DNA of 64,000 bases from Zanthoxylum bungeanum (Eukaryota > Streptophyta > Magnoliopsida > Sapindales > Rutaceae), in the NCBI GenBank assembly GCA_019454045.1, contig SKCR01015055.1:1-64000 (forward strand). Direction: 5' to 3'. The notes beneath the pieces were generated by a model. It saw nothing but the letters and a program-made list of their open reading frames with translations, did not search any database and was not told the origin of the DNA. A program made the position numbers and the translations under genes. Within the stretch, counting starts at the first letter, position 1. Each line of letters starts with the position of its first letter. Positions 30,068 to 61,824 of the stretch are shown piece by piece.

Positions 30068-30121
30068 TTTGGTGTGATTTAATTTTGTGTGTTTAGTTTT
30101 TGCAGATTAAGTCATTTCAAG

Positions 30122-30670: not shown

Positions 30671-30933
30671 ACGTCAACCAAGCCGCTACTTTTCTTGTAA
30701 ATATTATATCTCTTTGTCTTTTCCTAATAATTGTAATTTGTTTTGTTGTTTTCTTGTATTTTCTCCGACAGGATCCAGCCCTTTTTGACTAATCACGATA
30801 TTATTTCGCTACTAATCGTCCTCTGGAAGATACTTGTGCTATTTTTACTCACCCTTTTCAGGTACTATAAATTCAGCTCGTCATTGTACTTTTGAAGGCA
30901 TCCAAAGTTGAGAAAGAAATACATAAAAAAAAA

Positions 30934-31586: not shown

Positions 31587-31639
31587 TTTCCTGTAGATTT
31601 CAGCTAACCAGGTACGACCTTCGTAACTCTCCTTTTACT

Positions 31640-34498: not shown

Positions 34499-34608
34499 AT
34501 CCTCCAAGGGTGAGAGGAATCAAAGCTCACGTAGTTCCATTATAATTTTAAGACATATCCCCTTTGTAAATTACAATTTTACAATTATCAATCATCATTA
34601 TCAGTTGA

Positions 34609-34778
34609 TCATTCGGCTCCGGTTCCGCTTGCACTTGTTGTTGCACTTGCAGATGCATTATCGAACAATTCTTCAAAATCATCGGGGGCATCTTCTTGTT
34701 GTCTCAGATCAGCTCGAGTCCAATCATCCACACAAGCTGTTGCTTCTAGAGTGCTTGGATGTAATGAAGATCGCCTAG
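34609..34778 (-). pseudogene. hAT transposase C-terminal fragment, cut by LTR insertion
   Basis: The minus-strand frame reads RSSLHPSTLEATACVDDWTR, then an acidic DDFEELFDN and a Ser/Thr/Ala tail to a stop at 34609-34611. This resembles the C-terminus of BED-type hAT transposases (after the dimerisation domain: 'R.SL.P.TLEAL.C..DWL...EDFDEL'). The frame ends exactly where the gypsy LTR begins (34779), so the retrotransposon landed in this gene. The other half should lie beyond the LTR at the right but is not found, because that side is rearranged. Confidence 0.5.
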
Positions 34779-37406
34779 TGTGGGAACACAGGAAATCTGG
34801 GGCGACGCATGCTGTCCCGGGCTCGCGGCCCGGTCGGAGTACGGAGTAGCCACGGGGGACTAAACCGGAGAATAATGGAGTCGCCACCCGGTGTGAACCG
34901 GGAAAATGAGATTTAAGGCCGCACTCACCCCTCGCAAGGGAAGACCTCAAACCGTTGGGTTCGGAATGGTCCCTTACTTATGCCATTTGTAATGAAAGGA
35001 TTTACATAATAATTTAATCAGGCTTAAGTAACACTTATTCCTAAGAATATCATGCTTCTATATTCATGGGTACAAAATAACACTCATACATACATTTCGC
35101 ATATATCTCATATCTAATAACACATGTCTAACAAAATACCTCAAAGTAACAATGAACATACGACTTCATTCAGCATATCATATTCATGAAAACACAAGCA
35201 TACATAATATTCGCACAAGCATACATGTGAGCACTCTTCCAAGTGATACGTGTAATTGTATCCCAAGTACAGACCGCATTACCGTCCATTCGGAATCGGC
35301 TACGGAATTTATGTCTGGGTTTCCATCCGATATATCACAAGAAATAATACTCCAAAGTCATCATGGCATAGGCATATGAATCGTAATGCGTTAAATCAAG
35401 ACCAAGGCAAACGACACAACCAATGGAATAAACATGCTTTTCATTATTATGTGCACAAAGATAAGAATGACTATGTGTGGTTCCATAAAAAATCACCTAA
35501 GAAACAATTATACATGGCATGTGATGAAGATATCTCAATTCAGTGTGTTCACGTTCGTGTAGCGTTCGTAAACGCGCTCGAACGGAAATGAAACAGAATG
35601 CTCGCGTTTGAGTAGCGTTCGTAAACGCGTTCGAACGGAAATGAAACAGAATGCTCGCGTTCGTATGGCGTTTGATAACGCGTTCGAACGGAAATGAAAC
35701 AGAATGCTCACGTTCGTATGGCGTTCGTGAACGCGTTCGAACGGAAATGAGACCTGATGCATGATAAGGAAAAAATGCATGCGCGTTCGAGTTGCGTTCG
35801 TAAACGTGTTCGAATGGGAACAGACCTGATGCATGAAATGGGACGCAATACATAAACAACAAAATAAAGGGGCGCGGCGAAGTACTGCCGTAAAGGTGGC
35901 CTTTTGGGGCTCTTGATCTCTCAAAGAGAAGACCTTTAGACCAACATACTAAGCCCATGCGCGTCACATCACATCATGCATACAAACATAAAGGCAATCA
36001 TATTATTCTAAGTATGTCCGATTGAACGTGTCTTGCATCCAACCGAACACACATCAACCGGCGCGGCAAAGCATCGTGGTAAAGGGCTTTAACCCCTCCC
36101 CATAGGGGATCTTTCATTCCACTTACTAAGCCCATGCGCTCGATTGAGTCATGCATAAATAAGCAACATGCAGAATTTAAGTGACGAAAAATAAATAAAT
36201 AAAAGCAACACAAAACAAGAGAATGTGTCGTTTACTCAAGTGGTACGTGGAGTTGTATCCCAAGTACAGATCGCACTACCGTCCATTCGGATTTGGCTAC
36301 GGAATTTACGTCTGGGTTTCCATCCTATATACCACAAGAGACGACACTCTTCCATTTCATTCAAGCCACAACATGAATCCATAAACGACTCTCATGCTAA
36401 TAGAATTCAATAATAAAAAAAAAAACGAATATAAACTAATAAAAAGGTACCCTCAGGTCTAACCTTTTAAATCACCTCTCGGATGTATGGTACACGATCG
36501 TCGGAAGGGTGGATGCTCCGCAACTCTCCTGGTTCACTGGTTCACTGTTCTCGTTCGTTGTCTTACTGTTTTGAGTCGTCGTTTTCCGTCTTTTGCTACT
36601 GTTTCCTTGTGGTTTCGCTGCCGTTTCCTCTTTATCTTTTGCTTCCTGTTTTTGGGTGTGTTCTTCCTGTAATTTTTCTGTGTGTTGTCTATGAGCTAGG
36701 GACTAGGGACTAGGGTTGAGAAGGTTGGTGAAGGGTTCTTTTTATAGGCAAAGGGTTGGGCTTGACAAGGAAAAGGATTTGGCTAATTAAAGAGGGATTT
36801 GATTTGGTTTGGTTAAGGGAAGTCAAAGATTGAGGGGGGGACAAATCTTGGCTAGATAGGGAAGGTTGAATATTTGATTGGCTTGGTTTAGGAATACAAT
36901 ATTTTAAGTTAGGAATAATATATTGGTTGATTGATTTTAACTTGGTATGATTATATTTTTGATTTAGTATGTGATTTGTCTAAATTGGGCATGATTTTAG
37001 TTTAAGTTGGTAATTGTTTATTTTATGTTTGGTATATGTTTTATTTAATTATTTAATTAATTTAATTATTATCTTATTTAGTTAATGTTTTAATTAATAT
37101 TTATTTATTTAAATTGGGATGTGTTTTATGGGCTTTGGGGGGCTAATTGGGCTGGATGTGAGGCTAGCAGCAAAACCAGAATTACCGACACCGTTCGAAT
37201 GCTTCCTCGAACGCGGCATGAACGCCCGCAATCCGTTTGACGTTCGAACGTAAACACGAACGCAGCACTAACGAAAACAGTGAACCTTGTTTATTCTGAA
37301 TTTCCCCTTCCGATGTCCGTTTCCCGTGACCTCCGTGACTTAAAAGGTAGTGTCTCCAAAATGAGACTCATCATAGGGACTTATGTGTAAAAATACAGTG
37401 CCTACA
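34779..37406 (-). repeat. Ogre/Tat 3' LTR (complete, 2628 bp)
   Basis: In element orientation it starts TGTAGGCACTG and ends TGTTCCCACA. A TATA box (TATAAAAAG on the minus strand) lies near 36738-36747. 35540-35835 is a tandem array of about 55-bp units, most carrying the palindrome CGTTCGAACG. A segment of about 115 bp (from 'atacgtg(t/g)a(a/g)ttgtatccc') occurs twice inside the LTR, at about 35237-35355 and 36243-36352. Compared with the 5' LTR it has 335 extra bases (35909-36243). Confidence 0.85.
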
Positions 37407-37419
37407 GTCGGCCCCACTT

Positions 37420-38570
37420 TGATGGGACTTGTGTAATGTGCAACAGTGACAATCCTATCAAAGTTATGCAATGCATTTCTACTTACCTGGCTCGCCAGCT
37501 GCCACTTGACTTACCATGTGTTGAGTTGATTTGGGTGGTGAGGTGTTGTGACCCATGGTTCATTCCCGAACCGTGTTGTGATGTGGTCCATTCCCGAACT
37601 GTTGCCGTAAGGTGGTCCATTCCTGAACCGTTACTGTAAGATGGTTCATTCCCGAATCGTTACTGTGAGGTGGTCCATTCCCGAACCGTTACTGTGAGAT
37701 GTCCATTCCCGAACTGTTACTGTGAGGTGTTCATTCCCGAACTGTTATCGTGAGGTGGTCCATTCCCGAACCGTTACTGTGAGGTGTCCATTCTCGAACT
37801 GTTACTGTAAGGTGGTCCATTCCCGAACCGTTACTGTGAGGTGTCCATTCCCGAACCGTGCTTCCATTTCTTGGAGTGCCATTCCCGGCTTGTTCATTCC
37901 TGAACTGTATTTCCATTCTTGGAGTGCCATTCCCGGCTTGTTCATTCTCGAACTGTCCATTCTCGGACTATATCTCCATTCTCGGAGTGCCATTCTCGGC
38001 AGAACTGATCTGATGTAATATGGGCCTCGCCCCCAGAATGCCGTACCCGGCAATGCTGATACTGATGTAATGTGGGCCTCGACCCTGGGACTCATTCCCA
38101 AACTGTGTTTGATGTAGGCCTCGACCCTGGGACTCATCCCCAAAACTGATTGCTGAAGTGGGCCTCGGCCCCAACTGCTACTGACATGGGCCTCGCCCCC
38201 AGATTGATGCTGATGTGGGCCTCGACCCTCAGGATTCATCCCAAACTGTGTTTGATGTGGGCCTCGACCCTGGGACTTATCCCCAAAACTGATTGCTGAA
38301 GTGGGCCTCGGCCCCAACTGCTACTGACATGGGCCTCGCCCCCAGACTGATGCTGATGTGGGCCTCGACCCTCGGGATTCATCCCACTGATACTGATGTG
38401 GGCCTCGGCCCTCGGGATTCATCCCAAACTGATACTGGTGTGGGCCTCGGCCCTGGGACTCATCCTCAAAACTGATAGTGATGTGGGCCTTGACCCTGGG
38501 ACTTATCCCCAAAATTGATACTGATTCGGGCCTCGACCCTCTGCGATTCATTCTCGAAAACTGCTGATAT
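37420..38570 (-). repeat. Two tandem arrays in the 3' UTR of the Ogre/Tat-type element
   Basis: 37550-37860: about ten units of 'ggtggtccattcccgaaccgt' type, about 33 bp each. 38010-38540: about a dozen units of 'tgggcctcgaccctgggac' type, mostly 30-60 bp. Both are on the element's 3' side, where Ogre/Tat relatives commonly carry variable tandem repeats. The G/P/R/H-rich frames through these arrays are not taken as genes. Confidence 0.8.
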
Positions 38571-39059
38571 TGTACGGTTACTGCTTCTGGTTGGCTTGTA
38601 TTTGACGCTTTCTCTTTTTCTCCTTTGAAACCTGTTATTACAAAACAGAACAAACACAAAAAGGATGCGAATATGTTATGTGTATGCATGCATGCATGAT
38701 TGGGTTTCCTATCCCGTCGGGTTAGGTCTTCTGTCAATTCTCCTGGTGACTGCTTAGCCTTCTCTTCCTCAGACAAGCTATCTCTTCAATCTGTCTACGT
38801 TGATCGGCTCGGTGAACTAATTCCATTCCAAGTCTAATATCTTCACTGGCTATATTTCCCAATTTCTGAATGTCTATCTTATCTTTTCTGTTTGCTTATT
38901 TCGAAGGTTCCCCGTGTTCATCACTGGATTCCATAGTACCAAGGTTGAATACTTTTCTCAAATATACTCATATTGCAGAAGAGCTTCAGCGAAATGAACG
39001 TCTTTATTATTGTTGAGGAAAAGAGTTCGAAAAAGTAACAAAATCAATGCCATTAAAAA

Positions 39060-40341
39060 ACTGGATCAAATAGACTAGGAGGAACATCTCCATCATCCGC
39101 AGCACTGCCTTCTTCCTCGGCCTATGGTTCTTCACTGTCATCCATGTGAGAAGCTTGGTGGTTGAGGGTTTCTTTTCATGGGTTGGGTATTTTATGGGAA
39201 TCTATAAGATCTTGAATTTCATGCCTGAGGCGGGTGCAGTTGTCGGTGTCATGGCCATGTAGCTGGTGGAAGTGACAATAAAGGTTCACATTTATGTGTG
39301 GTGGTGGGGGTGCGGAAGTGGCTTGCCTTCTAAGGGTTTCAAGATTCCTTGTCCCTGTAACTTTTCAAATACCTTCGACAAATGTCTACCAAGGTCGGAG
39401 AATTGCCGGTTCCTGATGGCAGCAACCTCGACAGTAGCGGGCTTAGTTTCAGAATACCCCCCAAGAGTCCGCCTATTCTGGCCATAGGACTTTCTGTTTT
39501 CAGCCTCTTCTTCCTCAATATCCATGACAGTTTCCCTCAACTGTCGAAAATCAGAAATCATTGAAGTCATCCTCCTCAGCTTACTATAAATAGAGGACTT
39601 GGTGCCCTTGATGATCATTTAGATTTGGTCCTTCTCTGAGGGCCGAGTCTGCATTTTCAAAAGCTGGCTTCTCCAGCGATCCACATACTCATTGAAGCTT
39701 TCTTCCGGCTTCTGCTTAGTGTTCTCCAAATCACGGAGTGACAAGTCAATTTCCAAGTCTGTAACATACTGCTTCAGAAAAGCATCAGCTAGTTCCTTCC
39801 AATCTTCCTTAACCTTCTTCTCAAGGATATGATACCAAACCACAGGTGCCCCCCCGAGTGACATCCCAAACATCTTTTGGACTTGGCGCTGTGATAGGCC
39901 CATTGAACTCATGACTGAGACATATTGCTGCAGATGGACCCTCGGGTCTCCGTTCCCATTAAACTTGGCCATGTCCGGCATTTTAAACTGAGTTGGGAGC
40001 TGTTCTCCGAAGGTCATTGCCTCATAATCTAACAACTCTTCATGTTTACCCCTCATTTTGCGGGTAACTGTTTCAACCTGATCCCGAAGCTTCTGAAATT
40101 CTGCCTGAGACCCAATCACTTTGCCTGTTGCATACCCTGCTATGTCATCATCAGAAGTGGGGATATCATCCCCCAACCCATTCGGAGGCTCCCCGCGCCT
40201 CACATTCTCAGAATTTCCCCCAGCACGGGGCACAACCTTATTTTCCATGGCAGTGGTCATGGCTTGCAACTGTTCGGTGACCTTGGCGAGACTGTTTTCC
40301 AACTGATCAATACGGGATACCTCAATATCTGATTCACTCAT
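39060..40341 (-). pseudogene. Ogre/Tat gag, interrupted
   Basis: Starts MSESDIEVSRIDQLENSLAK (ATG 40339-40341). A coiled-coil start is followed by a Retrotrans_gag domain: MPDMAKFNGNGDPRVHLQQY, GGAPVVWYHILEKK, FLKQYVTDLEIDLSLRDLEN, KPEESFNEYVDRWR. An in-frame TAA (39619-39621) follows QTRPSEKDQI. The same frame then continues MIIKGTKSSIYSKLRR to 39292. A one-base shift near 39300 leads into NLYCHFHQLHGHDTDNCTRL, the C/H-rich knuckle that precedes protease in this clade. Beyond it are further stops. Gag packages element RNA. The protein is not intact, although the single TAA could in principle be read through. Confidence 0.8.
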
Positions 40342-40499
40342 GTCTGTTCTCAGTATTTTGGTGAGTCTTCCCTTTTCCCTAACCCAACGGGAATCTATGA
40401 TGGCTTTCAGAACACAAGGGTTAACATGATGTATGTATGCATGGGGTGCATGAGGTGTATATAACATATATAACATATTAAATCAATTATAACTCTCAA

Positions 40500-40980
40500 G
40501 CAAATCGGCCCGTTATCATTTTAGAATCCTTCGGGCTAATTGTCATAGGAGTGAACCCATCCCAGTTTAAATGGCCCAATGAGTTCACATCTCATGACAA
40601 GGTGCCCGACTAACCCAAATGGTAACGTTCCGAACACAATCACAAAGTGGCCCATCAATCACTTAGAAGCTTTTGGCCCAATAGTCATGAAATACGTTCT
40701 TGTCCCGGTTTAAATGGCCCAACAAGCCCATATCCCATGATAAATGGTCCAAATGGATCCAAACAACGATGTTCCCAAACACAAGCATAGAAGATAATGC
40801 AAACATGACATAATAATTTCTACACAATGGCCCATCGACATTTTAGAAGCTTTTGGCCTAATAGTCATGAGGTGCGAACTTGCCCCAGTTTAAATGGCCC
40901 AGCAAGCCCGCATTTCTGACAATAGTCCAACTGCATCCAAATGAGGATGGTCCACAAGCACATACTCAAGGAAATAATTG
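40500..40980 (-). repeat. Imperfect tandem repeats in the gypsy 5' leader
   Basis: About three copies of a unit near 180 bp containing 'agaagcttttggcc(c/t)aatagtcatga' and 'ccggtttaaatggccca'. They lie between the PBS and gag of the Ogre/Tat-type element. The rest of the leader (40981-41486) shows no ORF worth calling. Confidence 0.7.
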
Positions 40981-41486
40981 TTACTTTAGCCAACCCGGTC
41001 TATGGGTGGGTTAGTAAGAGTATAGACAAAGGCTCTCACAGGCGAAGGATGACCCACAACTAGGTCTCCCCACTCAAGGGTTCGAGAAACCAAGTGAGCG
41101 CACCCTTTTTTATACACTAAGGTACGTGCCAATGAGCTATGGTGTGTGACGGACTGTCAAATGGATTTCCCGTTGTAGATTCCCCAGAGGGAAGGTGGAG
41201 CGAGGCTCACTTAAATACCCAAGCCTCTTAGGCTTTTATCGCTTGGTGTCAGGAATAAACAACGAGTCCTCCAAATTAGTCCATCACAATAGGCTACAAG
41301 TAGATGGCTATCTAGGTGCCTTCACAGCTTTTCCTTCAAGAAAGGTAGTGAATGAAGGAAGACACCAAACCATTACCTAGCCTTAAAATGCATTTGATTA
41401 AACCCTCACTTTATCCACTATAGACACGGTCAATTAAAACATAAATCCAAACATCACAAGACAATATTTCGAGGCCGATTCTCTAT

Positions 41487-41503
41487 CCCCAGTGGAGTCG
41501 CCA
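41487..41503 (-). other. Primer-binding site, Ogre type
   Basis: On the minus strand TGGCGACTCCACTGGGG follows the LTR terminus (...CCCACA, GTC spacer). It is the tRNA-primer site known from Ogre elements (tRNA-Arg type by memory). It fixes the element's orientation and the LTR boundary at 41507. Confidence 0.85.
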
Positions 41504-41506
41504 GAC

Positions 41507-43314
41507 TGTGGGAACACAGGAAATCTAGGGCGACGCATGCTGTCCCGGGCTCGCGGCCCGGTCGGGAGTACGGAATAGTCACGGGGGACTAAACCGGAGA
41601 ATAATGGAGTCGCCACCCGGTGTGAACCGGGAAAATGAGATTTAAGGCCGCACTCACCCCTCGCAAGGGAAGACCTCAAACCGTTGTGTTCGGAATGGTC
41701 CCTTACTTATGCCATTTGTAATGAAAGGATTTACATAATAATTTAATCAGGCTTAAGTAACACTTATTCCTAAGAATATCATGCTTCTATATTCATGGGT
41801 ACAAAATAACACTCATACATACATTTCGCATATATCTCATATCTAATAACACATGTCTAACAAAATACCTCAAAGTAACAATGAACATACGACTTCATTC
41901 AGCATATCATATTCATGAAAACACAAGCATACATAATATCCGCACAAGCATACATGTGAGCACTCTTCCAAGTGATACGTGGAATTGTATCCCAAGTACA
42001 GACCGCATTACCGTCCATTCGGAATCGGCTACGGAATTTATGTCTGGGTTTCCATCCGATATATCACAAGAAATAATACTCCAAAGTCATCATGGCATAG
42101 GCATATGAATCGTAATGCGTTAAATCAAGACCAAGGCAAACGACGCAACCAATGGAATAAACATGCTTTTCATTATTATGTGCACAAAGATAAGAATGAC
42201 TATGTGTGGTTCCATACAAAATCACCTAAGAAACAATTATACATGGCATGTGATGAAGATATCTCAGTTCAGTGTGTTCACGTTCTTGTAGCGTTCGTAA
42301 ACGCGTTCGAACGGAAATGAAACAGAATGCTCGCGTTCGAGTAGCGTTCGTAAACGCGTTCGAACGGAAATGAAACAGAATGCTCGCGTTCGTATGGCGT
42401 TTGATAACGCGTTCGAACGGAAATGAAACAGAATGCTCACGTTCGTATGGCGTTCGTGAACGCGTTCGAACGGAAATGAGACCTGATGCATGATAAGGCA
42501 AAAATGCATGCGCGTTCGAGTTGCGTTCGTAAACGTGTTCGAACGGGAACAGACCTGATGCATGAAATGGGACGCAATACATAAACAACAAAATAAAGGG
42601 GCGCGGCGAAGTACTGCCGTAAAGGTGGCCTTTTGGGTACGTGGAGTTGTATCCCAAGTACAGACCGCACTACCGTCCATTCGGATTCGGCTACGGAATT
42701 TACGTATGGGTTTCCATCCTATATACCACAAGAGACGACACTCTTCCATTTCATTCAAGCCACAACATGCATCCATAAACGACTCTCATGCTAAAAGAAT
42801 TCAATAATAAAAAAAAATAATGTAAACTAATAAAAAGGTACCCTCAGGTCTAACCTTTTAAATCACCTCTCGGATGTACGGTACACGATCGTCGGAAGGG
42901 TGGATGCTCCGCAACTCTCCCGGTTCACTGGTTCACACTGTTCTCGTTCGTTGTCTTACTGTTTTGAGTCGTCGTTCTCCGTCTTTTGCTACGTGTCCTC
43001 CTTGGGTTTCGCTGCCGTTTCCTCTTTATCTTTTGCTTCCTGTTTTTGGGTGTGTTCTTCCTGAATTTTTCTGTGTGTTGTCTATGAGCTAGGGACTAGG
43101 GACTAGGGTTGAGAAGGTTGGTGAAGGGTTCTTTTTATAGGCAAAGGGTTGGGCTTGACAAGGAAAGGGATTTGGCTAATTAAAGAGGGATTTGATTTGG
43201 TTTGGTTAAGGAAGTCAAAGATTGAGGGGGGGACAAATCTTGGCTAGATAGGAAGGTTGAATATTTGATTGGCTTGTTTAGGAATACAATATTTTAAGTT
43301 AGGAATAATATATT
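41507..43314 (-). repeat. Ogre/Tat 5' LTR, truncated at its start
   Basis: Near-identical to 34779-36924 except for scattered substitutions, small indels and a 335-bp gap where the 3' LTR has 35909-36243. The gap has GG microhomology at its ends. Homology stops at 43314, where the sequence switches to the tail of a copia element, so the first roughly 480 bases of this LTR (in its own orientation) are missing. Confidence 0.85.
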
Positions 43315-43403
43315 ACGAAAACCTTTTCTCAGCAATTTGAGCGAATTGTACATAGTTCGGGTGTTAGACACTCGAGTGACTGGCTATGTGCCAAGTGGGA
43401 GAT

Positions 43404-45424
43404 TGTTGGATAATATGACCCATAGCGTCACTATTTGAACAGATCATTGTGTTGTTGTAGCAAATAACTATGTAATAAGAAATTGCACTCTCATCATGTG
43501 TGATTAGATCACCATAGATATATAAATGAAGAGAGGTCCCTATGATTAGTTCCTGGATTGAGATGATATGAGACAGTATCAGTCCACGAAGGATTAATCA
43601 TTAAATATCCCTAGCCGTAGTATTATCGAGACTGGACATCGATAATGCGGAATAGGCTAGTATTGCACTTGTGTGCGTTGTGAGGGCACAACGGCATAGT
43701 TCTCATATATATAAGTGTTGGATACTTATGCAAGTGCGATAGGAGGTCGTGTTTCACACTCACCGATGGTACGGGAAACAGCTTCGCTCTGGATAGACCC
43801 CTCGGAATCCCATTGGTATTATGAATATGTGTCTATGGGAGGCCGAAATCAAGGTAGGTGTGTATAGTCTTAACCTGAGACTTACATCGCTAATGCTTAC
43901 GACAATCGATATACTTTAGTTGAGGTCGTCTAGGACTGTAACCGGTTCTGTGTACGCCAATGCCGGGTATATTGAGAATCGTAGTGTATTGGATGTGATG
44001 TCAAGACGGATGTCACTCCAGTCATAATGGAGATGATGTCACGCAGGATACGGTATTAGTGCTCTTAAAGTGATGCGCATCCAATCGTGATATTATGACC
44101 AGGTCATGAATATCCGATTAGAGAGACTAGTTACCAGACATCCGATATGTGTTTCGGACGGGGCAGACACTTATCCAGCCCCAGCCCTAGCACGTGATTA
44201 TCCGATACTGGGCCGATATGCACAATACATTAGTATACTACGCTTGATACAGATCTTAATATTCTTTAATGGATATGTCCGGAGAATTAGGTAGACTTGG
44301 TGCTTTGCTAGGAGTCGACCTTGTCTCGTAAATCGGTAGAACGTAGTACTTGGTACGTACGTGATTCGGATACTCCGACGACCGTATTTACTGCCAGATT
44401 ATCCGGGGATCTCATGGGTCGCTTCCCGATAATCCACCGATGACGCACAACTCGCACTCTTGAATAATCTGGGATTATACAGAAGAGAGAGAAAATTAAT
44501 CTAGGATTAATAACGGAGATATTTTATCTGGGATAAAATGTCGTCTAAAGAGAGAGAACGATTAATTCGGAATTAATCGATGTATTAATATATTCGATAT
44601 AATAGAGACGAAATTAGATTTCGACGCGGAATTAAAATCGGATTTTAATTCGGGCAAACGAGTTAATTTAGAATTAATTCGTTAGCGACGTAAATAATAA
44701 TTTCGCCAGGCGCAATTATTTATTTAAATTCGATTGAATTAACGTCGCGACGTAAGCTCGGTATTTCGGAAATATCGAACCCGAACGCGTGAGTGCACGT
44801 GGGCCCACTTTCATTTGGAAACGTGTGGGGCCCACATGACACATGTCATTCTAATGCTTTGCATGTAGATTGTGTACATTGCACTCAATGTCCTTGCATG
44901 GAGTTTGAGTGTTTGACACTCTAAGCCATTGCATGTTATGTGTCATAATTTTATTATTAATTTAATGAAAATTATGGCATAAATATAATTGATTTTTGGT
45001 AAATCATTTTAATAACTTAATACACAATTTTATCTCTCTCAATTCTCCTCTTCCTCTCACGCAATGGGGCCATTCTTCACTGGTTTTGAACCAGTTGGGC
45101 GTGAATAAGGGAAGCAAGAGTGGTTTCTCATGGTGAGAAATCAAGTGCTAGCACACTTTCAAGTCTTGCGAAGGTGGTAGGGAGGTTCGACCATGAGGCG
45201 GGACTCGTCCGATGGAGTTTGGAGCTTCGTTTTGAGACCCGAAACTGCCAAGACAGTGAGCATGGACTGGTTGCAGTAAGCTTACCAAGGCAGTGCGTTT
45301 TTGGGCATGATTCGTCTTCAAATCGACATAACCGATCAATGTAAGTATTCCGCTATCTTCATTGGTGTATTCACGCATGTTTTCATGTCTTGATTTGATC
45401 TTGGGACCTTAGAAATTACCAACA
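43404..45424 (+). repeat. copia LTR1 (2021 bp)
   Basis: Terminal TGTTGG...CCAACA. It differs from LTR2 by only scattered substitutions and small indels by eye (for example a 6-base 'cactca' insertion near 43758 and a small change at 44007). It holds the Y-R-G-centred inverted-repeat array at 44464-44778. A 74-residue ORF (45120-45344) is preserved in both LTRs but looks like chance. Confidence 0.9.
44464..44778. repeat. Array of inverted repeats with Y-R-G spacers (LTR1; copy in LTR2)
   Basis: Stems and spacer in order: ATAATC/TGG (44464), TTAATC/TAG (44496), ATTTTATC/TGG (44521), CGATTAATT/CGG (44559), CGAAAT/TAG (44609), GAATTAAAAT/CGG (44629), GAGTTAATT/TAG with one mismatch (44660), CGC/CAG (44704) and TCGGTATTT/CGG with one G-T pair (44758). 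Each stem is followed, after the three-base spacer, by its reverse complement. A spacerless ACGTCGCGACGT lies at 44742. The same set is intact in LTR2 at 52318-52632. Confidence 0.85.
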
Positions 45425-47143
45425 ATGGCATCAAGAGCTAATGTTGCAAGCATGAAAAATTTTAGGGCTTAAAATTTGGGTAAATGTTTGTTGAGCATGA
45501 TTTGAATAAATTGATTGTTTAAGTATGCTTATAACATGTTTGATTGCATTTTGGTTGGACCAATTTATTGAAAATTGATTTGGAATAATTTTCCCCCCAT
45601 TTATCATGTTGGCCGAATGTTAGGAGTCTTGGAGTTCTTGGAATTTTTCATTTTAATTCATTGGATGAGTTATAATGATAGGATGATGTTAATTTGAAGT
45701 CAATTGGATTGAATTTTGAATTGAACAAAAATCCCCAATTTCCTTCACCTTGGCCGAATGTATAGCCCTATTGAATGTCTTGGTAATTTTGATTTTTGAA
45801 CATTGGATGTGTATGAAATCATTCGGGAAGTTAATACGTTGTCATTGTGTAATTAATCGGATTAAATTCAAATCGGACAAAATAACCTTCCTTGGCCGAG
45901 AGCATTGAAGCATGTTTATGGGTTTGATTTTCAATTTGTGTGTTGGACATATGATAATGAATTAAGCATGATTAATTGGACTAATTTGGTGCTTCGGAAA
46001 TATTGATTTAGTCGATTAATCATATAATGCACTTTAGGTAATTGAATTGCGTAATTGGATTAGTGTAATTTAATTATTTAGGCTTAAATTGGATTTGGGC
46101 TTGAATTGTTGTAATTGGGCCTATTGGGCTTGATTTATCAAGTTTGGTTTAGGCCAAATGGATTGGATCCAATTGGGCCCAAAACCTTGACCATAAAGCC
46201 CAAATGCGACTTAATGAACCTTTAAAGTTCAATTGGGCCTAATGGGCCAAGATTGATTTATGGGCTTATGGGGTAAATCCCGGATTGGACTTTGGTTATC
46301 GGTTTGACCCGAGTTGACCAAAAGTCCACGCCTTAAGAAATCAATCAAAAGCCCATTGGACTTTAATTGAATTGACGTTGGACGTTAATCGGTCTTTGAG
46401 ACGCGTTACGATTAGATTTGGAATTTAAATCGTAAAAGGTTTATTAAATAAAAGTGTAATATTTAATTTGGAATTGAATAGTAATTAGTATTAAATACAT
46501 GTTAAATTAGATTTAATGATGTAGTTTAATTTAATTCATGAATTCGTACTTTAAGTACTTATTCGCAAAAACGAGTTTGACTCGAACAAAATCAAATCGT
46601 TGTTTGAACATTGGATGATCACTTAATTATCAGATTAATTAATTTGATTAGATTGATTGATAGCATGCTTATGTGTGTGAATACGTGGTTGTGTTGAATG
46701 AATAATGTATATCGGATGGATATTAGTCGGGTGGGCAATTTTAGAAATTGTTGTAATAAATTCGATTTATTAAATTGGACCTGCGTGTCCAGCCTTATCA
46801 CCTCTATTCTCTTTGTATTCTCTTCTCACATATTCCCCTCTATGTATATGAGGTTTCTTTAGAAGTGTAGTGTAACGGGTAGAAGTAATACTAGTGCTAG
46901 CTTGAGTGAGAAAGGGAGAGATTTGATCTAGGATCAATGTGTTAAGTATCCATCCGCATATCATTATTATTTATTTTCATACTCGCTTTATTATGTATTT
47001 AGAATGCATGTTTAAGGGTGTATGAAGATGAGACCTTAACGAAGATAATTAAATTGGTAGCCAATTTGCACGCGAAAAAGCCCTCATCAAATATCATGCG
47101 TTTTTTCCTTCCATTGAGTGATTCTTACTCAAGATCCTAGATT

Positions 47144-47540
47144 GGCAGGGGTTGTTGGCCAAAGTCAAGCCCTTGTCCTTCGAAGATGTGTTTTAATCAC
47201 GAGGCTTTGTTCCATATCGGTGTCGTGTCCAAGTTGTGGTTTGTTGGCCAAAGTCAATACCACTTCTTGTCCATTGACATTGATTACGAAGCTTCCATGT
47301 CAATGGGTCCGCGCTTGACTGGGATCACTAGGTTTGTTGTGCCAAAGCCAAGGCCTAGTTGATTCAGAGGAAAAATGTTAGGGTATATATTGGATATATA
47401 GGCATATATAAGATATATGTTTAGGACTTGGATGTCCACCTACTGGATCTAGGAGTTGGATTAGATCCAATTGATCTTAGAGATCTACCTAGTTAATTAT
47501 CATACAATTTGTTGGCCAAAGTCAAGATTGTGTGATATTT
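47144..47540. repeat. Hairpins with constant 17-base loop and different stems
   Basis: TTGTTGGCCAAAGTCAA occurs at 47152, 47241 and 47509, with a variant at 47334. Each copy is flanked by its own imperfect inverted stem: GGCAGGGG with CCCTTGTCC; CAAGTTGTGGT with ACCACTTCTTG; ATCACTAGG with CCTAGTTGAT; ATTATCATACAAT with ATTGTGTGATATT. A separate perfect 10-bp stem (CCATTGACAT and complement, 47271-47306) lies among them. It is in the non-coding part of the copia internal region. Confidence 0.75.
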
Positions 47541-47956
47541 AACGGGATCCTAGCCCACTAGGAAACACGGTTTCCCGAGTACTCGACAGAGGGTTAGAGG
47601 CTCGACGAAAAATAGTGGGAGGCAAGTATTGAATTTGCAACATTCGTTCGAATACTCGCTAAACGCGCTCATCTATATTTTACTCGTCATATTAATCAAA
47701 AGTATTAGTTGGACTAATATTTTATGTTGTTTTAAATACATATATAGTTGGACTATATACAAACTCATTCAATATATAGTTGATTTTATAATTGGATTAT
47801 AGTAATCAATATAATTGAATTAAAATGATAGTTGATTTTATAATTAGATTATAGTAATCAATATTAAAATTATAGTTGATTAAATAATTGGATTATTGTA
47901 ATCATTATAATAAATAGTACCTTATTAAATTGATTAAATAGTTGGACTATTAAATC
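47384..47956. repeat. Series of hairpins centred on TGG/TAG in the copia interior
   Basis: Stems around a TGG or TAG centre: TATATAT (47384), AGTATTAGT (47701), TATATAGT (47741), TATAAT inside a longer GATT...AATC stem (47782 and, with TAG, 47833), AATAAT (47878) and AATAGT (47932). The innermost pair is T-A throughout. The next pair alternates between G-C and A-T with both sides changing together. Similar isolated hairpins occur at 48104-48127 and 48434-48466. Confidence 0.75.
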
Positions 47957-48859
47957 AAGAAAGAATTGAAAAGTTGAAAAAATATAATCATTGGATTAAA
48001 TGCTTTAAATGATTTAATTTTCATATTGGGAACAAATAATAGGTTAATTTATTTGATAAAATAACTTATTATGACTAAGCCCATAATTAAGCAAATAGTA
48101 GAGCATAAAGTCTTTGGAAGATTTATGTGATGATGACTTTAGTGCTTAATTAATATACTTATAATAAATCTATCTTTAGATTTAAAAGTATTAAAGTTGC
48201 AATTAATTGACTATTCTAGTGGAGAAAAGTCAAAGTTTGCAATTGGGCATGTAGCACAAGGTGCATATCATTTCGATATTCTAAAACCCAAGGCTTGGCC
48301 AAAGGTTTATGAAATATTGAAAAGATAATTGACATATCCCAAAGTGACTACCATTTGGATATGGAAGACACGAAGGAATTAAAGATAGGGCGAGGCTCTA
48401 ACTTTAAAAATATTTGTCAAAGTTATGTTTACTACTAGTATTGAAATTGGATTTTGAATACTTAGTGTGGTACATAATATATATATGTATTGACGTTCAG
48501 AATCCGCTTTGAGCTGGATACTGGCTTCAAGCCGAGATTTCTCTGCGAATTGGAAACGGGACGAAAGTCGCTGTTTCGACCGTAGATACCTAAGTTTAGG
48601 AACTACCCTTTGGGTATGTACTTAAATTAGGAAATGTTATAATGTAACTAGTTTGACTAGAGACATTATCTCTATATCAGTGTTTAATCCGATTCGGATA
48701 AAACCTTTATATTCTAGAACACTAAAGTGTTTCATTATATAAGATGATACTGAGATAAATACATTGGATGTAAATAACAGAATTTATATTTTGAATATAA
48801 TAAAATCTCAAACATATAAAATGACAAATAAATAGCTTAAATTGATTTGATCAATGGAG

Positions 48860-51170
48860 ACTTATTTGTGGCATTGTTGTCTATGACACAATTAAACAAG
48901 ACTTGTATATCCACACCTTTTAAGAGTGGGTACTAGGACTGATTTGACTATTCAAATAAGGTATACGAATCTAGTTTATTAGGTTAAATACCTAAAATAC
49001 TATTTACTTGGTAATAGTATCAGGGCCACCGATCTGTTAGCCCTATTCATGGTGAATTAAGTGGGCCCATATCTAGCTAGGCTAGATGTGAACATGAATA
49101 TTTCGTGACCTTAACGGATGTAGCATCACGTTGTGGTTATGTTTCTTTTGAAGAACACAGATCGGAAACTTTTGAAGTTTCGACACGAAGAAAACAAACG
49201 GATCGGCTATAGTGTTATTCCGCCACGGTAAGACCGAAATGGAAAATACTTAAGCAGTAAGTTTCATATATAAATGAAAGAGTACGGTGTTCTTTCATGT
49301 GAGGACTCCTCCCGAGACACGTCAGTTAGACGGTGTGTCTGAACTAAAACCGAATTTTTGTTGGACATCATAAGGTTTATCACGAGTCGCTCTGAGCTAC
49401 AATTTCCTTCAAACAGGATATGTATTAACAGTGCAAAACTTATTTAGAATAAGGTTCCATATAAATCTGTTTGACAGATATCATATAGGATATGAACAGG
49501 GAAGAAACGAGGTTTCTCATTCCTGATAATTTGGGTATGCGAGGCATAGCGTTTGAATGATACCAAACTAAGGACCCAAATTGGATAAGTGCCAATATAA
49601 GTTATCCTAAGGGAAACCTTAAATATAGTACTTATAAATCCCACATGAGAACAATGTAATTGTTGCTCACCATGCGGTTTTCCTGAGAGGAATACCGATA
49701 TGCAGTGGTAAGTGGGAGGATAGTGATACTCGATGAAAATCGGAGTGATACTGTTCTAGGCACGAAGTCCGTAATGGAACACAAACAGTTCATCTATGAT
49801 GAAACTATACCATTAATCTTCAAATACACAAGAAACTAGTAGATCGGATAGAGTCAGAAAACAACCTAGGTATGGGTTTCTGATCTAACCTCATAAAGAT
49901 GTCAATCTTATGGAGGTGTACCATCCGACTACGTTATGAGGAAGTGATACAGGTATCGACTCCCTGTTATGGCAAAGTACCATGAGTCCGATATGGATTC
50001 CATGTATAACGACTATTATGGATACTAGTTGTTGTACCACAAGGTGTTGTGCCTATGGTACATTATACGTCTTCAAGGAAGACATACATGGATGACAACA
50101 TACCAACTTACAAAGCTAGGCTTTTGACGGAAAAGTATCGTTATCAACATTGTGTTAATAACGGTTCAACCTTTTACCTGTTGCCATGGTAAGTCCATTT
50201 TGAAGATGCTTGTTGATAACTGTATATTTCATTTATGAAATATGTCAGTTACAAATCAAAATCGCTTTCCTGAAAAGGAAACCTTTTGGAGGATGTTTAC
50301 AACATCCTGACGATTTTGTATAACCGACAAACAAGGTTTGCGGGTTATTCGATCCATGTTTGGATCAAAGCAAGCATAAGGTTCTTGGAACTGACGTTTT
50401 GAAATAATCATAATGGTTTATGATTTAACTCAAAACGAAATAATTCTTGTGTATATAAGGAGGTTAGTGGGAGAGCGCACTGACAGTGAAATTCCCATAA
50501 AGCAATTGGTGAAAGCTTGGCTTTCATAGATATTCTTTCAATAGAAATTCTCCGTAGAATTCTGGGGAGTAACAACCTTTATTCAAGGAATAAAATCTAC
50601 TGGGATAGATTTGGAGTTGTTAAACACTCTCTGGGAAATTGTACATTTAAAAAGTACTTGTATTGGTGTCTCATACGCTTCGAGCATATGGAGTCACAAT
50701 CGGGTCAATCAAGTGATAGTCACTGGATTGAAGTTAAGAACATCTGTTAGTATCTCTGAGAACTAAAGATGCTATCTTTTACTATGGAGAAGGAGAACTT
50801 GAAGTGACTGGGATCACTGCAGCAAGTTTCCAAACGATTAAATACTACGGTACTATAAAGTTTGAACACCGGGACAGTGAGCTGGAAATCTTCCAAGCAA
50901 GATAACTGTTGCCGAATAAACAACAAATGTGGATTATTGCTGCAGCTGAGGCAGCAATAGAAGCCATTTGGGTCGATAATAAATCTAATTAGATTAGATA
51001 TAGTTCTGTTAGCAGATGAGCTAGGCGTCAGCACAAGGCTAAAGAATTAAAGGTCTCATCGACGATCCAGATATATACTTCTATATTCATCTGATTCGTT
51101 CGGATCATACATCGTGGCGATGTGATGATCGTATATATCGCGTCAGACGATAATCAAGCAAATCCGCTGA
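48860..51170 (+). pseudogene. copia integrase-RT-RNase H remnants
   Basis: Broken frames with many stops still align with copia Pol. At 48870 a LWHC-type GAG-pre-integrase start is followed near 49030 by RATDLLALFM and VGPYLARLDV. 49330-49700 resembles the integrase end (LDIIRF, NKVPYKSV, TGKK, ERNTDMQW). 49980 has ESDMDSMYND. 50350-50400 has RSMFGSKQA then GSWN, the YGLKQASRSWN region of RT. 50935-50980 reads IAAAEAAIEAIWVD, the RNase H motif. No open frame exceeds 100 codons, so the copy is non-functional. Confidence 0.75.
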
Positions 51171-51258
51171 CGAAAACCTTTTCTCAGCAATTTGAGCGAA
51201 TTGTACATAGTTCGGGTGTTAGACACTCGAGTGACTGGCTATGTGCCAAGTGGGAGAT

Positions 51259-53284
51259 TGTTGGATAATATGACCCATAGCGTCACTATTTGCACAGATC
51301 ATTGTGTTGTTGTAGCAAATTAACTATGTAATAAGGAATTGCACTCTCATCATGTGTGATTAGATCACCATAGATATATAAATGAAGAGAGGTCCCTATG
51401 ATTAGTTCCTGGATTGAGATGATATGAGACAGTATCAGTCCACGAAGGATTAATCATTAAATATCCCTAGCCGTAGTATTATCGAGACTGGACATCGATA
51501 ATGCGGAATAGGCTAGTATTGCACTTGTGTGCGTTGTGAGGGCACAACGGCATAGTTCTCATATATATAAGTGTTGGATACTTATGCAAGTGCGATAGGA
51601 GGTCGTGTTTCACCGATGGTACGGGAAACAGCTTCGCTCTGGATAGACCCCTCGGAATCCCATTGGTATTATGAATATGTGTCTATGGGAGGCCGAAATC
51701 AAGGTAGGTGTGTATAGTCTTAACCTGAGACTTACATCGCTAATGCTTACGACAATCGATATACTTTAGTTGAGGTCGTCTAGGACTGTAACCGGTCTGT
51801 GTACGCCAATGCCGGGTATATTGAGAATCGTAGTGTATTGGATGTGATGTCAAGACGGAAGTGTCACTCCAGTCATAATGGAGATGATGTCACGCAGGAT
51901 ACGGTATTAGTGCTCTTAAAGTGATGCGCATCCAATCGTGATATTATGACCAGGTCATGAATATCCGATTATAGAGACTAGTTACCAGACATCCGATATG
52001 TGTTTCGGACGGGGCAGACACTTATCCAGCCCCAGCCCTAGCACGTGATTATCCGATACTGGGCCGATATGCACAATACATTAGTATACTACGCTTGATA
52101 CAGATCTTAATATTCTTTAATGGATATGTCCGGAGAATTAGGTAGACTTGGTGCTTTGCTAGGAGTCGACCTTGTCTCGTAAATCGGTAGAACGTAGTAC
52201 TTGGTACGTACGTGATTCAGATACTCCGACGACCGTATTTACTACTGCCAGATTATCCGGGGATCTCATGGGTCGCTTCCCGATAATCCACCGATGACGC
52301 ACAACTCGCACTCTTGAATAATCTGGGATTATACAGAAGAGAGAGAAAATTAATCTAGGATTAATAACGGAGATATTTTATCTGGGATAAAATGTCGTCT
52401 AAAGAGAGAGAACGATTAATTCGGAATTAATCGATGTAATATATATATTCGATATAATTAGACGAAATTAGATTTCGACGCGGAATTAAAATCGGATTTT
52501 AATTCGGGCAAACGAGTTAATTTAGAATTAATTCGTTAGCGACGTAAATAATAATTTCGCCAGGCGCAATTATTTATTTAAATTCGATTGAATTAACGTC
52601 GCGACGTAAGCTCGGTATTTCGGAAATATCGAACCCGAACGCGTGAGTGCACGTGGGCCCACTTTCATTTGGAAACGTGTGGGGCCCACATGACACATGT
52701 CATTCTAATGCTTTGCATGTAGATTGTGTACATTGCACTCAATGTCCTTGCATGGAGTTTGAGTGTTTGACACTCTAAGCCATTGCATGTTATGTGTCAT
52801 AATTTTATTATTAATTTAATGAAAATTATGGCATAAATATAAATTGATTTTTGGTAAATCATTTTAATAACTTAATACACATTTTATCTCTCTCAAATTC
52901 TCTCTTCCTCTCACACGGCAATGGTGGCCATTCTTCACTGGTTTTGAACCAGTTTGGGCGTGAATAAGGGAAGCAAGAGTGGTTTCTCATGGTGAGAAAT
53001 CAAGTGCTAGCACACTTTCAAGTCTTGCGAAGGTGGTAGGGAGGTTCGACCATGAGGCGGGACTCATCCGATGGAGTTTGGAGCTTCGTTTTGAGACCCG
53101 AAACTGCCAAGACAGTGAGCATGGACTGGTTGCAGTAAGCTTACCAAGGCAGTGCGTTTTTGGGCATGATTCGTCTTCAAATCGACATAACCGATCAATG
53201 TAAGTATTCCGCTATCTTCATTGGTGTATTCACGCATGTTTTCATGTCTTGATTTGATCTTGGGACCTTAGATAATTACCAACA
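51259..53284 (+). repeat. copia LTR2 (2026 bp)
   Basis: Partner of LTR1, preceded by the polypurine tract 'aagtgggagat' and ending CCAACA at 53284. CGGGG (53285-53289) would be the 5-bp target duplication, but the left flank of the element is lost, so this cannot be checked. Confidence 0.9.
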
Positions 53285-55348
53285 CGGGGATCAGAACATA
53301 AAATTTTTTCTACCTTTCTCTCCTTAATGCCGAAAGTTACCAACACCAATACTGAAATTTTGCTTCTTTTTGGACAAAATTTCAGTCCCGAAACAGCCCC
53401 TTAACATCAATGGATGTTTGGACTGTTTTGGACTCGAAAAATGCACATCTCTATGCCCAAATCGGTCCTTATTTGAGTCAGTTCTCTCTGAGTTTCAGGT
53501 CTGATTTTTCTGTAAAAATCAGCCCCAACATAACCCCAAAACACCCCTTAATGTTCCCTAAAAATCCTGGATTGAAAACAAAACAAATCGAGCCCCGTAA
53601 CATCAAAAATATATGCGGCAGTGAGCAAAAACAATGCTCACTGCCGTGGGTCAAGAGAAAGAGGATGAAGATGAATTTTGGTTCAACACCAAAATGACTT
53701 ACGTGCTATGTCTCACAACCAACGGAAACTAGTGTGGGCTAGACTCACAAAATAAATCCCTAAATTTTTTAGAGATTAAAATCACACTTGTTTTCTTATG
53801 GATTTTGTTTTTCTTTTGTTCTTCTTTTCTTTTCTCAACACTTGAAAAAATTGTAAGAACAATAGAAGTGACTAGGTTTAGAATGAATTACGTTAGGCAA
53901 AAAGAAAATCATATTTTCTTTTTATACCTAAGGTTATTGTTTCCAAACAAATCAAAACCCTCCCATCCCCCAACTCCAAAATTTCGGTCATATTAGGGTT
54001 ATTTTAAAAATTTGTAACATTAAATTTTCAATTACCATAATTGAAAAGATGTTACAAAAATTAATAAGTTATCACCTTATAAAAGGTGTAACTTCCAAAA
54101 CCCAAATTTGGAAATTCCAAATTTAACCTTTATTGAATTGTATCATATATAATTTAATAACATGTGTTTAATTATCATATAATTATAAAAATTATATATT
54201 AAATTTAACATATAGTTTAAAGTGTGACAAAATAATATTATTAATCATATTAATAATATTTACATATGTGAGTATATAATTTGACTATCCAGTTATATTA
54301 ATCTGCTACAGTATATCGAACTAACACGGGACCAAATGGACCTATGGTTCTGAGCTCCAATAATCCCGGAATATTAATTAAGCTTTTAATTAAATATTCT
54401 GAATTATTAACTCCGGGTAATTTCACTAAAAATCTGAAACTGCATTATCTTTGCCGCAGATAGATAAATTAAGTCGAAACACGTCGGTGTCCATCGATAT
54501 AGTCATTTCATACGGATTGACCATTCATGAGTATCTCGTAATTAGAGCCAGGTCATAATGTCTGTTATACTCCTCTAATTATTTTTACCTTAAGTACTAT
54601 TGATTTTATAATGAACGATTTATTCATAACCATTATGAATGTTAATCTTTTTATTCGTAATAGAAAGACTTGAGCGCTCCAACCGTTTAAGTACCGAATC
54701 AACCCTTAAGGAAGATACTCATTTATTTCTCACAATAAGGAGTGAACTCCATATCTATGTAAAACTTCCTCAGCTACACACCAGATCATGTCCCTGAAGT
54801 ACTTAACTATTGGACAAGATTGCTACATCAACCTCATCTCTGTAAATCAAAGGATATAGCCCGTCATGCAGGAGTTCGTAGTACACTCAGGATTAATATC
54901 AATCCATATATGACCATCTAGTAGATCAAAATGAATTTTTTATTTAACGGATATTATAAGAAACTCATTTTCATATGAGTCCAGTCCTATATGACCACAT
55001 CATACAATGTGCCTCTATTCTCATGTTTCCATATTGACGATCCCGGATCAAGGTCTCCATACAATTATAGAATGGACCGCAGCTATAGATAAACCACAAA
55101 TAAAATACATGTTTTGTTTGTTCTCTATGGATTATTTTATATTACTAATTTTATATTATTTTATTTTATATTGTATATGACACTCATACACTAAGTCTGA
55201 AGACACGTGAGTAATTTATGGTAAACAATATAATTTACAATATGCGATATTAAAACAAACACTTTGGTAAATGAATAATGCATCATTTTATTTCATAAAA
55301 TATGATACTGTTTACATTACATGAAGCTTTAGGGCATATGTCCCAACA
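53285..55348 (-). mobile_element. Probable solo copia LTR, minus strand
   Basis: Read on the minus strand it begins TGTTGGGACATATGCCCTAA (at 55348), a start typical of a large copia LTR class, and runs toward TTCTGATCCCCG at 53285. The proximal end is not a clean ...CA terminus, perhaps because the copia element at 51259-53284 inserted there. No internal domain is attached. Short frames inside (for example 53410-53697) are not convincing genes. Confidence 0.5.
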
Positions 55349-55349
55349 A

Positions 55350-55836
55350 TATATCCAGATTATTTGCGATATTATTTAAAAAGTTATCAGATAATATAAT
55401 ATATTTTCTCATTATATAATATTTTTATTTTTAGATTTATTAATTTGATTTTATAATTTATTAGTAGTATTTTTTTAATATAATAGTCTAATATGTTTTC
55501 TTATTATAATATAGCTCTTATAAAATTATAATATATTTTTATTGCAATAGGGTTTTTATTTAATAGATTTATTAATTTAATAGTATTTCTTATTTTAATA
55601 GGATAATATACTATATTTTATTATTATAATAATGTTATTATTTTTAGATTTATTAATTTAATTTTATAATTTTATAATTTAATAATATTTATTATTTTAA
55701 TGGGATAATAGAATATATTTTCTTATTATAATAGAGTTCTTATAAAATTAGAATATGTATTTTTTATTATAATAGGTTTTTATTTAATCGATTTATTAAT
55801 TTAATTTATAATTTAATAGTTAGTTGTTAGGTGGGG

Positions 55837-55910: not shown

Positions 55911-56719
55911 TTGATGGTATTTTCAGATCCTATGATATTTAAGCAGTACGGCAGAGGTAAAAAGGTTATTCCCTTCTCGGTCAAGATCATTAATGCCGAC
56001 CAGACCACTAAAAGCCAACAGTAAGGGGCCGAGCACTTTATGATCGGTAACCGACCACTACAGACCGGATGGTCGGGCATTATCAGATCGATAGCAGCCT
56101 TCTCAGTTCAAAAGACCATTGTGACCGACCTCATGAAGGCCGAGGATATGGCGAGATATGCTCCAGAAGATAAGACATCATATTTTTACGGATAAGAAGA
56201 TAAGTTATCATACTTTCATGAGGAAAATTGATAAGTCAGTGTCCTAATATGATATGGGAAGTGAATGTAGTTTCGACTAGGAATTCTTATGGGAAAATGA
56301 AAATTGTTTCTTTGCTATTATAAATAGGAGGGGAAAGCGTGCTTGTAGGTAGATGATTGAGAACATTGTAGAAGAGAGAGGGTTGAGATGATTGAGAACA
56401 TTGTAGAAGAGAGGGGGTTGAGATGATTGAGAGCATTGAGAGTTGAGAAGAGAACAAGAGAGAATTAGACTTGTAAACACAAAACAGATCAGAGAAACAT
56501 ATTTCGGTAATAAAATATCCTCTGTTCTGTGCCCGTGGATGTAGGTTGGATCTTATCCGCCGAACCACGTTAAATCTCTTTGTTGATTGGTGTATTTATC
56601 TATTTTTTGCCATATTTGCTTTTGATTTCCCATAAACAAAACAAATTCACAGTTGGAGGATGATTATCTCGGGAGTAAAAAACCATTATTGTCCCTGAGA
56701 CCAAAATCCGCCGTCAACA
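55909..56719 (+). mobile_element. Solo LTR (811 bp), family uncertain
   Basis: Termini TGTTGA (55909) and TCAACA (56719) are inverted repeats. A TATA box TATAAATAG lies at 56319-56327. A 37-bp unit ('gattgagaacattgtagaag' and following) is repeated about 2.5 times from 56355. The 3' part has 'cccgtggatgtaggttgg' and 'gccgaaccacgtt', the leader end of many plant LTRs. ATATT occurs just inside both flanks, one base out of register, so the target duplication is doubtful. Confidence 0.6.
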
Positions 56720-59298: not shown

Positions 59299-59307
59299 CA
59301 AATTTAA

Positions 59308-60094: not shown

Positions 60095-60112
60095 TAAATT
60101 TAAAGTTGAAAA

Positions 60113-61745: not shown

Positions 61746-61824
61746 ATTTGGCGCCCACCATGGGGCCTTAGCGATTTATAGTAAACAAACCTCTATTCAG
61801 TCTACGGGACTTGCGAACATAATA

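Follow-up and report, generated by a model that had tools for sequence, protein, structure and literature searches.

Short inverted repeats with an N-N-G spacer are dispersed over a copia LTR retrotransposon clade of Zanthoxylum bungeanum

A clade of copia LTR retrotransposons in Zanthoxylum bungeanum appears to carry short hairpins, about 50-60 in each copy, in the LTR, the leader and gag-pol; non-autonomous relatives have them in a non-coding internal domain as well. Each predicted hairpin has a stem of roughly 5-10 bp, largely free in sequence and usually closed by a Y-R pair, and a three-base loop reading N-N-G on the sense strand (typically UAG, UGG, UUG and similar). That the hairpins are under selection is well supported by the comparisons among copies given below; that the selected molecule is the sense RNA is also supported, more weakly. 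Our preferred reading, at a probability of about 0.45, is that these would be sense-RNA hairpins whose loop G is recognised, most likely by the Gag of the element, as dispersed packaging or assembly sites. Among the best matches in the open-access literature there was no earlier description of the NNG hairpin feature.

The element lies at 43404-53284 of the window, the 64,000-nt stretch of contig SKCR01015055.1 (assembly GCA_019454045.1) that was analysed, on its forward strand. The left LTR copy (43404-45424, TGTTGG...CCAACA) and the right copy (51259-53284) are 98.4% identical by BLASTN and enclose an internal domain at 45425-51258 that has no ORF of at least 200 residues. Searches with tblastn located a decayed gag/protease remnant at 48480-48847 (42-52% to a related Gag piece) and decayed RT/RNase H remnants at 50341-51241 (pieces 50341-50595 and 50759-51241); ten ORF pieces from this internal domain gave no convincing Pfam match. 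Related copies encode copia-type gag, integrase core and RVT_2 (Pfam PF14223, PF00665, PF07727), and their Gag has one CCHC zinc knuckle stretch by Pfam. We call the window element copia because of these domains together with the decayed remnants. A PPT-like AAGTGGGAGAT adjoins each LTR on its upstream side (43393-43403 and 51248-51258), within a stretch of about 90 bp that precedes both (43315-43403 and 51170-51258). The left LTR therefore looks like the end of another element, and the arrangement looks like part of a head-to-tail LTR-internal-LTR series truncated on the left. A second pair of long repeats upstream (34779-36924 and 41507-43314, two aligned pieces of 98.7% and 96.5% identity) possibly represents the LTRs of a different element. 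Next to the right LTR, on the reverse strand, is an LTR of a second copia family, called family K here (53285-55348, starting with TGTTGGG at 55348), whose own 3' end was not found. Rfam had no match above gathering score in 43315-55400.

An array of inverted repeats occupies 44464-44778 of the left LTR and recurs at 52318-52632 of the right one. All nine repeats listed in the preliminary description are found there, and eight are perfect over at least 5 bp; the CAG repeat (44707) has only three perfect pairs. In order along the forward strand the hairpins are ATAATC[TGG]GATTAT (44464-44478), ATTAATC[TAG]GATTAAT (44495-44511), ATTTTATC[TGG]GATAAAAT (44521-44539), CGATTAATT[CGG]AATTAATCG (44559-44579), TATAT[TCG]ATATA (44589-44601), CGAAAT[TAG]ATTTCG (44609-44623), GAATTAAAAT[CGG]ATTTTAATTC (44629-44651), TTAATT[TAG]AATTAA (44663-44677, where the outer pairs continue past one A-U/G-U pair), CGC[CAG]GCG (44704-44712, where a mismatched extension follows the three perfect pairs and most other aligned copies have TAG) and TATTT[CGG]AAATA (44762-44774). 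A repeat with a TTT spacer at 44522 looks like chance. The spacer had been described as always Y-R-G; the conserved TCG hairpin, with its loop at 44594, widens the rule to N-N-G.

Comparison with shuffled sequence, proposed at the outset, leaves the array standing: it has ten perfect spacer-3 stems of 5 bp or longer, where 1000 dinucleotide shuffles average 0.92 and reach 6 at most, and seven of 6 bp or longer against 0.28. Spacers of 0, 2, 4, 6 and 8 are at expectation. The excess is specific to spacer 3; the stems counted with spacers of 1, 5 and 7 are the same spacer-3 repeats recounted. Directly downstream of the array, 44786-44860 contains a G-box, GTGGGCCCAC-like palindromes and ATGACACATGTCAT, which we take to resemble promoter elements, and a TATA-like stretch follows near 44980.

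The feature had been placed in the LTR. The LTR array is real, but 28 of the 48 NNG stems of at least 6 bp in the element lie in the internal domain. With stems of at least 5 bp, the LTR has 20 spacer-3 stems against 2.46 expected, 14 of them NNG (0.57 expected), and the internal domain has 62 against 8.97, 47 of them NNG (1.84 expected); expectations come from 200 shuffles of slices 43404-45433 and 45434-51264, and the exact ends give the same counts. One LTR plus the internal domain (43404-51258) thus holds 61 NNG inverted repeats against about 2.4 expected. The opposite orientation, C-N-N, occurs four times in the LTR and once in the internal domain (a CGG, beside 47 NNG), and all five are C-N-G, hence also N-N-G. 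Over the whole window 52 NNG stems of at least 6 bp were counted, 48 of them in 43404-53284, and the flanks have no NNG excess (8 against 8.8 expected in 1-30000, 2 against 3.4 in 30000-43403, 0 against 2.2 in 56000-64000). Chance in AT-rich sequence, to which the low GC content of the stems (23%) would lend itself, has a negligible claim, since neither the dinucleotide shuffles nor the neighbouring sequence yields the feature.

Loop triplets in the LTR and internal domain (stem at least 5 bp) are led by TAG (18 at 140 sites), TGG (15 at 153) and TTG (12 at 239), followed by CGG (4 at 55), AAG (4 at 142), GAG (3 at 102) and TCG (2); most others occur once or not at all. The closing pair of the 61 hairpins is T-A in 39, C-G in 14, A-T in 6 and G-C in 2. 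The stems were first described as unrelated to one another, and the 61 hairpins do have 48 different 5-base arms, although several LTR stems share a core, ATTAATYTRGRATTAAT. The internal domain also has a mild excess of stems with spacers of 4, 6 and 8. The hairpins have no regular spacing (coefficient of variation 1.09 against 0.97, sd 0.12); a dense internal cluster at 47384-47951 has TGG, AAG, TAG and ACG hairpins, then six TGG/TAG hairpins at 47710-47943. Elsewhere in the window, 22280-22768 and 26964-27169 are arrays of TTTAGCGTCGAAA...TTTCGACGCTAAA-like inverted repeats beside ORFs resembling those of a CACTA-type transposon.

Other copies of the family, where the feature might have been missing, carry it in those compared. 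The array was aligned in 12 copies, including three window-type ones that are 97-100% alike, for nine hairpins chosen in the window copy. Leaving out the hairpin at 44707, the third loop base is G in 105 of 105 readable loops, beside a second base that may be A, G, T or C and a first base that is T or C. Seven whole-element comparisons had changes at loop positions 1, 2 and 3 in 63, 85 and 42 of 357 cases; position 3 is not the least changed everywhere, with 7, 9 and 8 changes of 42 from copy A to copy B, and from copy E to the window the counts are 11, 6 and 8 of 55. Per-site change over whole elements is 0.06-0.16 in stems and 0.145-0.195 in the rest. The loop G is kept in 276 of 298 cases with intact stems and in 106 of 131 with damaged stems (pairs counted both ways; loop-1 change counts from this tally are symmetric by construction and are not used). 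Family K keeps the G in six of its seven window hairpins, the one that lost it having a broken stem, and reading the comparison in the opposite direction gives 10 of 11 alignable cases (of 12 hairpins).

Changes on the two sides of the stems are coupled. With base pairs defined in the window copy (70 in nine hairpins, that at 44707 left out), eight pairs have both-side changes against 3.6 in shuffles (reached in 1 of 500), or 14 against 4.3 when counted by cell (0 of 500); further pair types number 14 against 11.1 (18 of 500). The real structure pairs in 95.2% of cells, and control structures slid along the alignment have 1-3 both-side pairs. The hairpin at 44762-44774 reads TTAATT[TGG/TAG/CGG]AATTA in most relatives, with changes on both sides. 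In four of the seven whole-element comparisons, Watson-Crick pairing survives a double change in 17 of 24, 10 of 11, 5 of 7 and 17 of 23 cases, and over eight comparisons pairing is kept in 117 of 158, against 2803 of 6844 at control pairs.

The hairpins are kept inside coding sequence as well. The coding parts of three gag-pol copies, A (C50243:174115-178020), B (C50243:318286-314312) and C (C33376:127737-131714), have 15, 22 and 22 NNG hairpins against 1.20, 0.97 and 0.95 expected, and family K pol has 8 against 0.67. By tblastn, copy A and the gag of copy C are spread over more than one frame; copy B has open pieces of 438 residues for gag and 410 for RT, and its gag and RT frames were used to sort differences by codon position. 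In the order B-A, B-C, C-B, C-A, A-B and A-C, third positions differ in stems at 4/60, 3/61, 3/52, 2/51, 1/41 and 4/41 sites, and outside stems at 189/770, 130/769, 132/781, 206/779, 193/794 and 204/791, which is 2.6 to 10 times less change in stems. First and second positions have no clear difference between stems (8/119, 3/119, 5/100, 11/100, 5/85 and 5/85, same order) and outside (160/1546, 75/1543, 73/1568, 161/1567, 163/1590 and 169/1586). The six comparisons draw on shared sequences and so are not independent; at third positions all point in one direction. Density is 7.5-8.3 hairpins per kb in non-autonomous internal domains, which are under no coding constraint, and 3.8-5.5 in coding regions.

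Neither protein constraint nor scars of replication readily account for the protection of third positions. Such scars were among the origins first offered, as the scar of a recurrent template switch: the clade's reverse transcriptase would fold back and copy one arm into the other, making or re-perfecting the repeats. Copying of arms could give the polarity, the restriction to a clade and the joint arm changes, and perfect stems are indeed common, yet it does not predict a third loop base that is G in every readable array loop beside a free second base, nor fewer substitutions in stems. A pure scar leaves both the array loop G and the protected third codon positions unexplained, and we consider this origin improbable.

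Which strand forms the hairpins can be approached through wobble pairs, because G-T pairs in sense RNA and A-C does not. Among single changes in eight between-copy comparisons, 94 give G-T and 45 give A-C, where control pairs give 9864 and 8242 (p 0.002, a value that is overstated since the comparisons overlap; in one of the eight the counts are 8 and 9). Within copies the preference for GT over AC is weak, with composition-corrected p of 0.45, 0.02 and 0.15 for 6, 7 and 8 pairs. The between-copy bias, the clearer of the two, is modest evidence for the sense strand. In folding predictions for 100-base pieces, energy improves as much on one strand as on the other, with no sense advantage. Folded alone, the 321-nt array has z -2.76, with five of the triloops in the minimum-energy structure and six in the centroid, and its first two hairpins pair with each other. 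Hairpins in the minus-strand cDNA, with a C-N-N loop and a role in reverse transcription, cDNA protection or integration, would have the same symmetry and satisfy the polarity; the excess of G-T over A-C in the sense reading is the wrong wobble for them, a bias that is itself modest, and we regard them as quite improbable.

The interpretation in the preliminary description is partly supported; of the roles suggested in it, RNA hairpins fit best. A dimeric protein bound to double-stranded DNA, another role named there, leaves the sense-oriented asymmetric centre and the location in gag and RT unexplained. As sites for a dimeric transcription factor, or for CHG methylation, in a Sirevirus-like LTR enhancer, the repeats would suit the position of the LTR array upstream of the TATA-like stretch and the core shared by some LTR units; the sense-oriented rule nevertheless extends through the internal domain and gag-pol, and a dimer on DNA is not favoured because it has no reason to orient the centre with the element. 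The spacers TTG, AAG and GAG are not CHG relics. Descent of the loops from CRG, a CHG context, by deamination had been proposed, and as a general account it fails, since T or C can also stand at the second spacer position, and A or G at the first. It fails too at 44568, where CGG is present only in the three window-type copies and the nine others have TGG or TAG; a single-site C-to-T change is possible at 44639 and 44767, where several subfamilies have CGG. DNA sites could be an added role in the LTR. As a general account they are contradicted, and we hold that reading to be very improbable.

The nearest published likeness is in Sireviruses, whose LTRs have palindromic boxes upstream of a TATA-like region (passages of Bousios et al. 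2010, PMC2829016), as does this copia LTR. In the parts of PMC2829016 used here, each Sirevirus element has one motif built on a CGG-CCG core, located in its LTR and in the env-side linker; stems here vary and have no CGG-CCG core, and the hairpins also lie in the leader, gag and RT. The Sirevirus PPT octamer is AGGGGGAG and here it is AGTGGGAG, with the following AT/TG present here too. As octamer, single motif and CGG-CCG core all differ, we do not class the repeats among Sirevirus motifs. Of the 13 published motifs, five (Osr10, Osr8, HOPIE, OPIE-2 and PREM-2, in Table 3 of PMC2829016) can be read as C-N-G-centred with a three-base spacer, though a perfect C-N-G palindrome has no orientation. 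Maize copia LTRs have hairpin structures likewise: passages of PMC10760457 print their commonest consensus, CACCGGACNNNGTCCGGTG, with a three-base spacer. Those C-N-G centres and this spacer make a common origin with the Sirevirus palindromes possible. The maize palindromes are one sequence, studied for small RNAs and methylation, and the same passages of PMC10760457 mention no loop-G rule and no coding-region hairpins.

The distribution was followed in the same genome. A search of the 3.96-Gb assembly gave 741 candidates, of which the 40 matches scored are 98-100% identical, two being the window's own, and 240 kb of further sequence (200 contiguous kb from a different contig and a 40-kb sample) were examined. 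The 200-kb stretch has 481 spacer-3 stems of at least 6 bp, 188 NNG, 180 CNN and 19 both, arranged in strand-pure blocks of several kb with near-empty stretches between; the 40-kb sample has 159 stems (98 NNG, 42 CNN), again in blocks. Outside the blocks, the NNG counts of three stretches match or fall short of expectation (3 against 4.5, 8 against 7.7, 1 against 3.0); having been chosen after the block map, they describe the contrast and are not an independent control. BLASTN assigns most blocks in the 200 kb to copies of a single copia lineage, whose LTRs are 76-98% identical to those of the window where they align. Its sister family K carries NNG hairpins too, seven in its LTR (slice 53294-55345) on its own strand against 0.74 expected. 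By BLASTN its likeness to the main family is limited to 0.5 kb of pol, at about 67%, and to a 38-bp piece, the LTRs having no significant match, and the RTs are 61% identical over 100 residues. A third, non-coding block, M, has 32 NNG against 2.27 expected; in block M/N (L129/L130 at C50243:213541-220790 and L133 at 250848-252981) repeats centred on TTA/TTG overlap one another, and by BLASTN it resembles neither of the two families.

In the four copia ORFs of other lineages that were compared, the hairpins are absent or nearly so. Four of the 150 RVT_2 matches listed, chosen for long open frames and with RT 32-49% identical to that of the main family, have 0, 2, 4 and 0 NNG hairpins in their ORFs against 1.00, 0.96, 1.47 and 0.99 expected; the slight excess in the third is reached in 5 of 100 shuffles of the ORF and in 1 of 100 of the whole 4 kb. 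Two of the four have a CCHC knuckle above the Pfam cut-off, one has it below and one has none. The clade with the hairpins may belong to a lineage such as Angela or Tork. Pattern scans of IMG/VR and GTDB yielded loci of which six were viewed (L001-L006); none of these has an LTR pair, a copia-like ORF by eye or a clear NNG excess: spacer-3 stems number 8 against 2.4 in L005 and 7 against 3.1 in L006, few of them NNG. A 57-residue query found no relatives in the IMG/VR and GTDB contigs.

What would read the hairpins is suggested by three points taken together. The related Gag has a CCHC knuckle; passages of PMC3759924 describe CCHC knuckles of HIV-1 NC and Lin28 that bind loop guanosines; and passages of PMC6281560 describe RNA-virus packaging signals as dispersed stem-loops with a common recognition motif. 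From these we propose that an RNA-binding protein encoded by the element would read the exposed loop G, that Gag with its zinc knuckle is the best candidate, and that the dispersed hairpins would let the element and its Gag-less relatives load their RNA into particles. The irregular spacing of the hairpins, and the zinc knuckles found in copia lineages that lack them, count against this reading. The likeness to HIV-1 NC and Lin28 is in a CCHC knuckle and a loop guanosine, with binding putative here; those proteins use paired knuckles on GGAG-type loops (passages of PMC3759924), and the related Gag has one CCHC stretch. With the viral signals our hairpins share their number, varied stems and a common loop motif, in an LTR retrotransposon rather than an RNA virus, and are known from sequence alone. 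A case of shared packaging is BARE1/BARE2, in which the RNA of a Gag-less copia subfamily is packaged into particles of the autonomous one; passages of PMC3735527 mention conserved packaging and dimerisation signals, and in those passages no genome-wide triloop feature is given for BARE1/BARE2.

The same sense hairpins might instead be selected for another reader or for their structure as such. The reader could be a host RNA-binding factor, or reverse transcriptase or integrase; the structure could matter for RNA stability or through an interplay with RNA silencing. The evidence for selected sense hairpins fits this and names no protein, zinc knuckles are wider in distribution than the hairpins, and palindromic LTR regions of maize Sireviruses are reported, in passages of PMC10760457, to draw small RNAs. 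A strongly kept loop G on a largely free stem argues for recognition of the loop rather than for bulk structure. The stems, at 5-10 bp, are also short for Dicer, which counts against the alternative, and we consider it unlikely, though it deserves weight beside recognition by Gag. Recognition by Gag has a further, somewhat doubtful extension that we put forward tentatively: a genome-wide triloop code would be written through gag-pol, fixing third codon positions, Gag would select and pack RNA by it, and non-autonomous relatives could compete for packaging.

To our knowledge, how plant retrotransposons choose RNA for packaging, and how Gag-less elements parasitise them, is poorly known. The hairpin rule is visible in the sequence and is kept inside coding sequence, which makes the packaging question testable with short RNAs and Gag, and a simple strand-specific scan for a three-base spacer ending in G can be applied to other genomes. 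A palindrome in a copia LTR may be an element of the RNA and not of the DNA and, if the proposed reading is true, this clade would have a dispersed packaging code in an LTR retrotransposon.
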